Of a stretch of DNA of 64,000 nucleotides, positions 44,005-49,708 are shown piece after piece. How positions within the stretch are numbered: the first letter of the stretch is position 1; each line of letters opens with the position of its first letter. Source of the DNA: Candidatus Cloacimonetes bacterium HGW-Cloacimonetes-2. Lineage in GTDB: Bacteria > Cloacimonadota > Cloacimonadia > Cloacimonadales > Cloacimonadaceae. A program made the position numbers and the translations under genes. Where the stretch lies: NCBI GenBank assembly GCA_002842035.1, contig PHBP01000001.1:109198-173197 (forward strand), given 5' to 3'. The notes below the pieces were generated by a model that saw only the letters and a list, made by a program, of their open reading frames with translations, searched no databases and was not told the origin of the DNA.

Positions 44005-44010
44005 TTGACA
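44005..44010 (+). promoter_or_regulatory. Candidate -35 box for the FGE-domain lipoprotein
   Basis: TTGACA lies 73 bases before the chosen ATG at 44083. TAAAAT follows after 8 bases only, so it is not a normal -10. Confidence 0.3.
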
Positions 44011-44082
44011 ATTTCCCGTAAAATAGCCAGACAGCAGATGCGACATTTGATTCACGCAAACAATCTAACAATTGGAGAATCA

Positions 44083-45105
44083 ATGATTAGGAAGCTGTTC
44101 TCATTTGCATTGCTACTGCTACTTTTTTTATCTGGATGCAAGAGCACCACAGGCCCGGATGACAGAGTACAAAAGCCTGATTTTAGTCCCGGTGAGGGGA
44201 CATTCACTACTCCTCAAAGCGTGATAATCACAACTGCTACTCCAGGTGCTACTATTTATTATACAACCGATGGCAGTACCCCAAACTCAGATTCAATGGA
44301 ATACTCAAATCCCATCCTGATCAATTGTGATTTGACGCTCAAAGCCATTTGTATGAAAGAGGGAATGGCGGACAGCCCCATCAGAAGCGGAACTTACCGG
44401 TTTCACTTTCAAGCTCCTGAGGGATTTGTAACCGTTATGGGGGGATATGTATCAGGTATATCTGTAAATAGCTTTTATATGGCTAAATATGAAGTCACCC
44501 AGACGCCATATACTGAGGTTATGGGTAAGAATCCGTCATATTTCCAGTCTGTTGAAAACGCACCAGTGGAAAGAGTATCGTGGTTGAAAGCCATCGAATA
44601 CTGCAATAGACGTAGCATTCTTGAAGGATTGAATCCATGTTATACCTACGGTAGCATGGGCAGTAATCCTGACGATTGGCCAGAAAAGTGGTTCCTATAC
44701 GCAGCAAACCATACCAATATTCATTGCTCCAGCCAAAACACTGGATATCGCTTGCCTACAGAAGCAGAATGGGTTTATGCTGCCCGTGGCGGACTCCTCA
44801 CAAATGGCTATGTTTTCAGCGGTGGTAACAACTTAAATGAGCTTGGATGGTATTGGGACAACTGGGGACAAGAACATCTCAGTACCCATTCTGTTGGAGC
44901 ATTGATACCCAATGAGCTGGGTATATTTGATATGAGCGGAAACGTTTGGGAGTGGTGCTGGGATATCCATAGTGGCACAAACCGCGTTCACCTGGGTGGC
45001 AGTTGGGTGCACAGCGACAGCACATGCGCAATATCATTCAGGTGCTTCAACGCTGCAAACTATGCCAGCCACTACATAGGCATCAGATTAGTGAGATCTG
45101 TATAG
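44083..45105 (+). CDS. Lipoprotein with chitobiase-C-like and formylglycine-generating-enzyme-like domains
   Basis: The start is set at the ATG at 44083 because TTGGAG lies before it and the protein then begins with a lipoprotein signal (LLLLFLSGCKS, Cys at about residue 18). Residues 30-105 match the chitobiase/beta-hexosaminidase C-terminal-like domain (FSPGEGTFTTPQSV, ATIYYTTDGSTPN). Residues 115-340 match the SUMF1/FGE family: YMAKYEVTQTPYTEVMG, YRLPTEAEWVYAARGG, GIFDMSGNVWEWCWD, LGGSW and RLVRS at the end. FGE-type domains often serve as carbohydrate-binding or structural modules; true sulfatase activation is doubtful because the family's active-site Cys pair is not obvious. Confidence 0.87.
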   Translation: MIRKLFSFALLLLLFLSGCKSTTGPDDRVQKPDFSPGEGTFTTPQSVIITTATPGATIYYTTDGSTPNSDSMEYSNPILINCDLTLKAICMKEGMADSPIRSGTYRFHFQAPEGFVTVMGGYVSGISVNSFYMAKYEVTQTPYTEVMGKNPSYFQSVENAPVERVSWLKAIEYCNRRSILEGLNPCYTYGSMGSNPDDWPEKWFLYAANHTNIHCSSQNTGYRLPTEAEWVYAARGGLLTNGYVFSGGNNLNELGWYWDNWGQEHLSTHSVGALIPNELGIFDMSGNVWEWCWDIHSGTNRVHLGGSWVHSDSTCAISFRCFNAANYASHYIGIRLVRSV

Positions 45106-45140: not shown

Positions 45141-45146
45141 TTGACA
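45141..45146 (+). promoter_or_regulatory. Candidate -35 box for pruA
   Basis: TTGACA, with TATATG at 16 bases spacing as a weak -10. It would start a leader of about 180 bases that contains the switch-like structure. Confidence 0.5.
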
Positions 45147-45228
45147 GGAAAGAGCCATTTTATATGCTAGTAATATCGCCGAGTAAGTAGTCCTACAGCT
45201 TTTCTGAGCCACGGCTGCTTGCCGACAG

Positions 45229-45346
45229 GGTATTGCCGGAAACAGCAATGCCTTCCAGTGTGAAAAGGTGATTTGGCACGCATCGAGGATTCAGCGTCCC
45301 GATTTTTCTATGCGTCCCTCCTTTTCACGCACAATATGAAAAGGAG
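45229..45346 (+). promoter_or_regulatory. Candidate riboswitch-like leader controlling pruA translation
   Basis: Hairpin 1: GGTATTGC (45229-45236) with GCAATGCC (45245-45252, one G-T pair). Hairpin 2 has three stacked stems: GTGAAAAGG (45260-45268) with CCTTTTCAC (45320-45328), ACGCAT (45278-45283) with ATGCGT (45310-45315), and ATCGAGG with CCCGAT inside. The same 3' strand also fits the Shine-Dalgarno: CTCCTTTTC (45318-45326) is the exact complement of GAAAAGGAG (45338-45346), seven bases before the ATG. The two pairings exclude each other, so hairpin 2 would free the Shine-Dalgarno and its opening would hide it. No known riboswitch class was recognised. The ligand, if any, is unknown. Confidence 0.55.
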
Positions 45347-45352
45347 AAATAT

Positions 45353-46975
45353 ATGTTTTTCGAAGTTCCAGTCCCAAAGAACGAGCCGGTACTCAGCTAT
45401 CGACCCGGTTCAGAGGAAAGAGAATCGCTCAAAAAAGCTCTCAACGATCTCTACACCCAGGAGATAGAAATCCCCGCCATCATAGGCGGAAAAGAGGTCT
45501 TCACAGGTGATACCGATTATTGCATCAGCCCACACGAACACCGCCATCACCTTGCCAAATACCACAAAGTAAGGCAACCCGAGATACAGGAAGCCATCAG
45601 AACCGCCACGCAAGCCCACCGGGATTGGGAAGAGATGCCCTTTTATCATCGCAGCGCCATCTTCCTCAAAGCTGCTGAATTGCTCTCCACCAAATACCGT
45701 TTTCTGCTCAATGCCGCCACAATGCTTGCTCAGAGCAAAAACGTCCATCAGGCAGAGATTGATTCAGCCTGCGAATTGATAGATTTCTGGCGCTTCAACG
45801 CCTACTTCGCCCAAAAGATCTATGAACAGCAGCCTCTGATCTCGCCCAAAGGCGAATGGAACTTCACCGAATACCGTCCCCTCGAGGGTTTTGTCTTTGC
45901 GGTTACCCCCTTCAATTTCACTGCGATTGCCGGTAATCTGCCCACTGCTCCTGCCTTGATGGGCAATTCTGTAATCTGGAAACCTGCCGGCACAGCCGTC
46001 TATAGCGGATATTACATTATGAAAATTCTCCAGGAAGCCGGGCTGCCCGATGGCGTGATCAATTTCATCCCCGGCGCAGGCTCTCAGATTGGCAATCTGG
46101 TGTTGGATTCTCCAGAGCTGGCGGGCGTCCACTTCACAGGCAGCACAGGCGTCTTCAACCAAATATGGCAACGCACTGCAAACAATATCCACCTTTACAA
46201 ATCCTACCCCAGGCTGGTAGGAGAAACCGGAGGCAAGGACTTTATCTTCGCGCACAGCTCCGCTGATCCACGCACCCTGGCAGTCGCCTCCCTGCGCGGT
46301 GCATTTGAGTATCAGGGACAAAAGTGCAGCGCCGCCTCCAGACTCTATATCCCTCAATCCTTGTATGCACAGTGGCACGATGAAATGGCAGAGATGCTTG
46401 GCACACTTCAGATGGGCGATGTACGCGATTTCTCCAATTTCGTAAACGCTGTGATCGATAAAAAGAGCTTTGATACCATCCGAGCTTACATCGATTTTGC
46501 TGCAGAGTCTTCCGATGCAGGGATTATCTTTGGCGGCAAATGCGACGATTCCATCGGATATTACATTGAGCCCACCGTGATCAAGACCAGCGATCCTTTC
46601 TTCAAAACGATGCAAGAAGAGATCTTTGGACCCGTATTGACGGTTTATGTCTATCCGGATGATCAATTCGCAGAGACTCTTTCTATCTGCGACAAGACCT
46701 CACCCTATGGGCTTACAGGCTCGATCTTTGCCCAGGATCGCAATGCAATCTGTATGGCTTACAACATCTTGCGCTATAGCGCGGGCAATTTCTATATCAA
46801 TGACAAACCCACAGGAGCAGTGGTCGGACAACAGCCCTTTGGCGGTGGCAGATCATCCGGCACGAACGACAAAGCCGGCTCAGCACTCAATTTGCAGCGC
46901 TGGATCTCAGCCCGCTCCATCAAAGAGAATTTCGTGCCCGCCACCAACTACGAATACCCCTATATGTTACCCTGA
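45353..46975 (+). CDS. pruA: L-glutamate gamma-semialdehyde (1-pyrroline-5-carboxylate) dehydrogenase
   Basis: This 540-residue aldehyde dehydrogenase matches the stand-alone P5C dehydrogenase of the Bacteroidetes/animal type in length. It has ITPFNFTAIAGNLPTAP-like sequence (FAVTPFNFTAIAGNLPTAP), FTGSTGVFNQIW, GETGGKDF (catalytic Glu near 291), GQKCSAASR (catalytic Cys at residue 325), and QEEIFGPVLTVYVYPD. It oxidises glutamate semialdehyde to glutamate, the second step of proline (and arginine/ornithine) breakdown. No proline dehydrogenase is nearby. A strong GGAG Shine-Dalgarno is embedded in the switch-like leader; a good terminator follows. Confidence 0.95.
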   Translation: MFFEVPVPKNEPVLSYRPGSEERESLKKALNDLYTQEIEIPAIIGGKEVFTGDTDYCISPHEHRHHLAKYHKVRQPEIQEAIRTATQAHRDWEEMPFYHRSAIFLKAAELLSTKYRFLLNAATMLAQSKNVHQAEIDSACELIDFWRFNAYFAQKIYEQQPLISPKGEWNFTEYRPLEGFVFAVTPFNFTAIAGNLPTAPALMGNSVIWKPAGTAVYSGYYIMKILQEAGLPDGVINFIPGAGSQIGNLVLDSPELAGVHFTGSTGVFNQIWQRTANNIHLYKSYPRLVGETGGKDFIFAHSSADPRTLAVASLRGAFEYQGQKCSAASRLYIPQSLYAQWHDEMAEMLGTLQMGDVRDFSNFVNAVIDKKSFDTIRAYIDFAAESSDAGIIFGGKCDDSIGYYIEPTVIKTSDPFFKTMQEEIFGPVLTVYVYPDDQFAETLSICDKTSPYGLTGSIFAQDRNAICMAYNILRYSAGNFYINDKPTGAVVGQQPFGGGRSSGTNDKAGSALNLQRWISARSIKENFVPATNYEYPYMLP

Positions 46976-48447: not shown

Positions 48448-49708
48448 CAATATAAAGTACAGATACGATGTTGAGCGTGAGGCAAACTGCCTTGATGAAT
48501 GGAACCTGTTAGTGGATGGTAGCATTGTGACAGATCATGAATACAACGACTACTGGCGTTTCATATCAATCCCTCTGGAAAGGGGGTATCATACCTTACG
48601 CTGGGTTGGTACTCGTGACCCCTCCCGGGATAGCTTTGGGAGCATCTTCCGACTTGATAATCTGATTTTTTCACCTGGTGTACTGTTTTCCAATGCCATC
48701 CTGGTGCCCGAATATGAACAGCTTGAGATCAGCCTTGCTCCCGGAGAGATACGTGATTTATCCTTGGATCTGCATTCTCAGGATGGCAAGAGTATCGAGT
48801 ATATTGCGGTTTTACGCCAGTCGAACAGCCTCAAACAAGCAACTGAGAGTATCAGCTTGGTATGCAATCAGGATACCTTCCAGGCAGGCAGCGAAGATCT
48901 GTACCTGATCTCGCTCTACAACAGCGATCAGACACTTAACGTGTATCAGATCAATATTGAACTGCCGGACGATGTAATCGCCAGCAGCGTTGGCAGTTTT
49001 AATCTGCCGGGAGAAACGCCATTGCTGTTCACCGGAGACATTGGCAGCCTTACCAGGCTCAGTTGGTTCAACGAAGAAGGCTGCAATGCGGATAGTCTGC
49101 GCTGTGGCTTCAGGCTGATCATAGATGCCAATCTTAGCCACCTGGTGATGCCCTATGAGGTGCATACTCGCGATACGGAGGGATTAGAGCGGTGCTTTGA
49201 AGGATCAATCGAGCTTTCCAGAGGTGATGAACAGATGGAGAGCTTATACTTGCTACAGAATGAAGGCAGGGTGAGTCATACAAGGACATCTGCAATCACT
49301 ATGAGGGCAAACCAAAACTTACTCATCCCAGACAGTGCTGCATACGACCTGGAAATCTACTACAATGGCAACAATATGCTTACTATTCCCATAAATATTA
49401 GTTATGATAGCAATCCGGCAGGATTTTACGATACGGCACATTTAAAGGTTTACCCCAATCCCTGCATGGCAAGTACGAAGGTGGCATATTCCATACCCGC
49501 TACAGGACGCGCACTACTCGAAGTATTTAACATACGTGGTCAAAAAGTGCGAACCCAGGTGGACTATACACTTGCCAAGGGCTATTACAGGACAATCTGG
49601 GATACCTGCGACGACCGGGGAAACCCAGTGGGCAGCGGAGTATATTTTTGCCGGCTAAAAGCATCAAAAGACCAGGAGGCAGTCATCCGCTTTGTAGTAC
49701 TGAGGTAA
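48410..49708 (+). pseudogene. C-terminal remnant with adhesin-like and Por-type sorting domains
   Basis: This 432-codon frame begins at a GTG inside the previous ORF, one frame away, and has no Shine-Dalgarno of its own. Its first residues read as the inside of a domain (SISFYSRSFSNIKYRYDVER, LLVDGS, GYHTLRWVGTRDPS, FRLDNLIFSPG), the pattern of cleaved-adhesin/MAM-like modules. A long beta-rich stretch follows. The last 90 residues hold YPNPCMASTKVAYSIP and GNPVGSGVYFCRLKA, a FlgD/Por-type sorting domain. It is best read as the 3' half of one broken gene with the ORF at 48031. Confidence 0.6.

Follow-up and report, generated by a model that had tools for sequence, protein, structure and literature searches.

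The RF01055 (Moco/Tuco) riboswitch of Escherichia coli moaABCDE (Regulski 2008, PMC2408646) belongs to the same aptamer family as the RNA described here upstream of pruA in a Cloacimonadota genome, and it likewise controls translation with the ligand as repressor, as we predict for pruA. Unlike the E. coli RNA, the pruA leader lacks the P3 stem, and its target is neither a gene of cofactor synthesis or transport nor a gene for a Mo/W enzyme. Furthermore, the predicted switch of pruA uses a separate anti-Shine-Dalgarno (anti-SD) segment, whereas the ribosome binding site of the E. coli RNA apparently lies within P1 (PMC2408646). The P3-less form was assigned to the tungsten cofactor (Tuco) by Regulski 2008, while direct ligand binding by an RF01055 RNA was not demonstrated in that study. 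Such RNAs from Syntrophomonas wolfei, Moorella, and others (PMC2408646) resemble the pruA leader in missing P3 and in occurring in tungsten-using anaerobes, but differ in that their genes are mostly those of cofactor synthesis, transport, or tungsten enzymes. The same authors speculated that some enzymes might be repressed where a Tuco-using alternative exists, and described no case of a metal-free enzyme (PMC2408646).

The cobalamin riboswitch of metE, which encodes the B12-independent methionine synthase, is a further close parallel (PMC9600662). At metE, a cofactor sensor represses a cofactor-independent stand-in, and does so in genomes also holding the cofactor-dependent enzyme. Aptamer, cofactor, and enzymes all differ from those at pruA, and the two enzymes are known to catalyze the same reaction in the metE case, whereas this is putative for PruA and the tungsten-type aldehyde:ferredoxin oxidoreductase (AOR). 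The aptamer class of the pruA leader is already known, and its mode of action would follow the one described for cobalamin and metE (PMC9600662). Open-licence PMC papers yielded neither pruA as a target, nor a wiring to a cofactor-free enzyme, nor the pruA-type P5 change described below; judging from the listed titles and abstracts, no riboswitch has been tied to the regulation of P5C dehydrogenase in that literature. Cloacimonadota together with tungsten were not found there either, and "riboswitch" and "Cloacimonetes" were mentioned together only in one paper, which deals with another phylum.

The aptamer in the pruA leader

The pruA (rocA) gene (45353-46975, + strand, start ATG at 45353) lies in the window, i.e., the whole stretch of 64,000 nt that was analyzed. 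Its product of 540 aa is an L-glutamate gamma-semialdehyde (P5C) dehydrogenase of the NAD-type ALDH family, which scored 808 bits against the equivalog model TIGR01236 (cut-off, 613.6). As a member of a metal-free family, PruA is expected to carry no Mo/W cofactor. The upstream neighbor (44005-45105) encodes a lipoprotein-like protein with weak GldK/PvdO-type (formylglycine-enzyme-like) matches, and is probably unrelated.

A cmscan search of the whole window returned a single RNA family match, RF01055, on the + strand at 45165-45286. The score was 65.7 bits (gathering score, 36; E = 1.5e-13 for 64,000 nt), and the alignment covered the full model (1-135). No other Rfam class was found in the pruA leader, even at E ≤ 1. 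We therefore assign the leader to the Moco/Tuco class with hardly any doubt, and the view that it matches no known class, advanced in a preliminary description of this DNA, falls by that description's own criterion. The structured RNA also starts at 45165, well before the 45229 given there. The P1 strands are AUCGCC (45175-45180) and GGUGAU (45267-45272). The P4 hairpin (45228-45253) carries the GNRA tetraloop of the family, GAAA at 45239-45242; it had been taken for a hairpin standing apart at 45229-45252, and the hairpin is real while its separateness is not. It is followed by the P5 mini-hairpin (UC...GA, 45254-45263), which has a U-A pair in place of the canonical C-G. In the alignment, P3 is missing (deleted columns), as in the Tuco subtype. 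Judging from spacing, 86 of 95 RF01055 copies lack P3, including all 15 that precede pruA; at least one of the remaining nine (that of G064) has an insert at this position. The Mo/W pterin cofactor is the likely ligand, given the class of the aptamer. The rule that the downstream gene makes, moves, or uses this cofactor does not hold for pruA, but this is an association of RF01055 and no structural criterion. A promoter-like site (TTGACA-16-TATGCT, 45141-45168, + strand; 10/12 matches in a consensus scan only) lies just 5' of P1, and a search for an intrinsic terminator between the aptamer and pruA found none.

Among the 98 Cloacimonadota genomes searched, RF01055 is present in 66 and pruA is over the cut-off in 38, in 15 of which RF01055 lies directly upstream of pruA. 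It was not found at the other 23 pruA loci, nor at 11 homologous loci from other phyla. The 15 pairs are spread over several genera and two or more PruA lineages, and the expression platform recurs in most of them. The PruA proteins of G037 and G051 are 58-59% identical to that of the window, and the others 75-88%. Because the 15 proteins do not form a single clade on the PruA tree, either the riboswitch came to lie before pruA on at least two occasions, or different pruA genes moved in downstream of it.

Expression platform and predicted switching

The preliminary description had proposed a translational riboswitch with anti-SD logic, and this part is supported, the anti-SD switch being the expression platform of the aptamer. 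All the segments it quoted were found in place (GTGAAAAGG, 45260-45268; CCTTTTCAC, 45320-45328; CTCCTTTTC, 45318-45326; GAAAAGGAG, 45338-45346), and the two mutually exclusive pairings are longer than first noted. The switching segment GUGUGAAAAGG (45258-45268, + strand), which would form the P5/P1 core in the bound state, pairs over 11 bp with CCUUUUCACGC in the anti-SD region CUCCUUUUCACGC (45318-45330, + strand). The anti-SD also pairs over 10 bp, as CUCCUUUUCA, with the Shine-Dalgarno (SD) region of pruA, UGAAAAGGAG (45337-45346, + strand), and 8 nt are common to both pairings. None of 500 shuffles of the platform reproduced either pairing, and the fold z-score was -3.8 for 45220-45370. 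The linker hairpin between aptamer and anti-SD (ACGCAU...AUGCGU, 45278-45315, + strand) is present in both predicted folds. It was correctly named as an inner stem (ACGCAT/ATGCGT), while the second inner stem named with it (ATCGAGG/CCCGAT) pairs only with a bulge.

In the predicted free fold, GUGUGAAAAGG is paired to CCUUUUCACGC, with the SD partly exposed; when P1 is enforced, the anti-SD is paired to the SD, whose unpaired fraction falls from 0.40 to 0.00. Because the SD becomes less accessible with P1 enforced, the cofactor-bound state is predicted to be OFF. The mean drop in SD accessibility on "binding" in 14 pruA leaders was 0.288, compared with 0.013 when the platform alone was shuffled, and 10 of the 14 leaders were at or below 0.03 in this control. 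The leaders of G007, G049, and G016 folded no differently from their shuffles, and that of G037 was marginal. The overlapping core/anti-SD/SD pairing is strong in eight pruA leaders and weaker in three further ones. The core:anti-SD helix shows a single clear two-sided change among pruA leaders (G004); covariation here is too small to argue from, since the aptamer fixes the core, and for this reason we relied on the shuffle control.

Judging from these folds, the pruA leader is likely a translational OFF switch, with exclusive pairings that hide the SD when the cofactor is bound. While no tungsten (or molybdenum) pterin cofactor is available in free form, the core GUGUGAAAAGG would pair with the anti-SD CCUUUUCACGC, leaving the SD open and pruA ON. 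With the cofactor, P1 and P5 would hold the core, and the freed anti-SD would pair with the SD, turning pruA OFF.

The opposite sign is predicted for four leaders preceding AOR genes (L039, L062, L075, and L037 of G080, G067, G056, and G084, respectively), where the mean SD accessibility rises from 0.14 in the free to 0.76 in the bound state (predicted folds, n = 4), i.e., an ON switch. In the free RNA of G080, G067, and G056, the SD is predicted to pair with the CCUCC of the aptamer itself. Among 46 leaders of lipoprotein/TonB operons, 27 are predicted to be OFF and one to be ON. The switching signs of all three groups of leaders are thermodynamic predictions.

PruA, AOR, and alternative explanations

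A tungsten-type AOR (PF02730) is encoded by 68 of the 98 genomes. As in the metE case, the cofactor-dependent enzyme occurs in the same genome as the riboswitch (AOR in G000, with AFOR_N and AFOR_C domains and 1aor as the closest solved relative). Of the two genes of the AOR family in the window genome, one is of the classical tungsten AOR type, with a polyferredoxin gene upstream, and the other is nearer to GAPOR. In G053 (L050:854-6109), AOR is apparently split into AFOR_N, joined to a NuoE-like domain, and AFOR_C, joined to a 2Fe-2S/4Fe-4S domain; the halves flank a NuoF-like gene, though an assembly fault is possible.

When only the 64 genomes of 90% or higher completeness were considered, pruA was found in all 19 without AOR, compared with 13 of the 45 with AOR (p = 8e-8, Fisher test ignoring kinship), and no genome lacked both. 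The riboswitch precedes pruA in 12 of the 13 genomes with both genes, compared with one of the 19 with pruA alone (p = 7e-7, Fisher test ignoring kinship), so that, as expected from metE, it is absent from 18 of 19 near-complete genomes holding the cofactor-free enzyme alone. This absence is partly trivial, because most AOR-less genomes have no RF01055 at all. Independent matched pairs on the PruA tree gave about three to five concordant and no discordant cases, and a phylogeny-aware sign test fell short of 0.05. The exceptions are G020 and G049, which have the riboswitch with no AOR found, and G054, G063, and G086, which have AOR and a pruA without the riboswitch.

From this complementary distribution, PruA is probably a metal-free stand-in for AOR. 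It could instead belong to a general response to the state of the cofactor (e.g., the NADH/ferredoxin balance) by ordinary feedback, with no such role, and the NuoE/NuoF-like genes that follow pruA on the same strand in G051 would suit this explanation. We consider it unlikely, because no AOR-less genome that is at least 90% complete lacks pruA, which points to replacement.

A second alternative concerns the ligand. In 13 of the 15 copies before pruA, both sides of the P5 pair differ from the canonical form (U-A for C-G), and the core GGAAAGG thereby becomes GAAAAGG, a string identical to the SD. The canonical pair is kept in nearly all other RF01055 copies, including the second copy of the same genome; the lipoprotein/TonB copy of G031, from the same family, is an exception outside pruA leaders. 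That this clade senses another ligand (another cofactor form, or a metabolite connected with glutamate semialdehyde) would fit a change nearly confined to pruA copies, in a stretch shown as highly conserved by the Rfam consensus. However, the pair itself is preserved, the rest of the core scores 44-75 bits in these copies, and the pruA leaders of G037 and G051 retain the canonical pair and core. There is also a simpler reason for the change: it makes the core SD-like and removes the CCUCC that is the partner of the SD in AOR leaders. A variant aptamer is thus improbable, and we read the P5 change as a putative tuning of the switch.

It is very improbable that the riboswitch is a functionless relic from another gene. 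The weakest pruA copy (43.9 bits) does occur in G020, which has no AOR, but the arrangement recurs at 15 loci, the platform is matched to the SD of pruA, and the riboswitch was recruited onto different PruA lineages. A new riboswitch for an amino acid or related metabolite (proline, glutamate, or P5C), proposed in the preliminary description since the gene handles glutamate semialdehyde, is almost certainly wrong and was rejected, given the strong RF01055 match, the same aptamer before transporters and AOR in this phylum, and the lack of any proline dehydrogenase (Pro_dh) over the cut-off among the 98 genomes.

The best overall explanation, which we hold to be probable judging from gene content and sequence, is that a Tuco-type RF01055 RNA controls the translation of pruA, whose product backs up the tungsten AOR. 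PruA would be the NAD-linked, metal-free enzyme of aldehyde disposal, made only while the cofactor, probably scavenged, is short. The aldehyde would most likely be glutamate semialdehyde made from ornithine, its use by AOR being putative; ornithine aminotransferase, a source of this aldehyde, is over the cut-off in 85 of the 98 genomes.

Cofactor supply and its consequences

The Mo/W cofactor is unstable outside proteins. No genome of the 98 had a MoaA C-terminal domain over the cut-off; MoaC and MoeA passed theirs in two and ModA in three, whereas most control genomes were positive. The other RF01055 copies mostly precede a lipoprotein and a TonB receptor, or an ECF-type transporter operon, and some precede AOR. 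Because moaA, moaC, moeA, and modA are almost absent and RF01055 lies on TonB receptor and ECF-type transporter genes, the cofactor of Cloacimonadota is probably scavenged, and a switchable backup would pay where such a supply is unreliable.

The ECF operon encodes an ECF-like S protein, two ABC ATPases, a CbiQ-type T protein, and, in some of the genomes, a phosphodiesterase/nucleotide-pyrophosphatase-like protein. A further protein of this operon, for which 19 of 21 members match a molybdopterin-binding oxidoreductase domain, has a predicted structure matching that of PruR, a pterin-binding protein, in the PDB, as well as sulfite oxidases (SUOX fold). Operons of this type behind RF01055 (L090:4054-8657, L066:7427-8365 on the - strand, and others) are candidate Mo/W-cofactor importers. 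On contig C3 of the window genome (L034:7810-10514), RF01055 is followed by a lipoprotein of ~272 aa and a TonB receptor of ~628 aa, as in many relatives. The lipoprotein gave a confident predicted model (pLDDT 93), for which a structure search of the PDB returned no significant match. On contig C3 of G006 (L066), two RF01055 copies stand back to back, one at 48954-49078 (- strand) toward the ECF operon and one at 49391-49509 (+ strand) toward the lipoprotein/TonB genes.

We tentatively propose that most Cloacimonadota are unable to make the cofactor and that one riboswitch family would turn uptake OFF when it is plentiful, the tungsten AOR ON, and PruA OFF. If true, this would be a one-family cofactor economy with a candidate uptake route for the Mo/W cofactor, including a bacterial import system; no earlier description of a bacterial Moco importer was found among the open-licence PMC papers listed. 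If PruA does back up AOR, the Moco/Tuco riboswitch would decide between a metal-cofactor enzyme and its metal-free substitute, extending the principle known for B12 and metE to molybdenum and tungsten, and control of amino-acid fermentation by the tungsten supply would become testable in the anaerobic Cloacimonadota.
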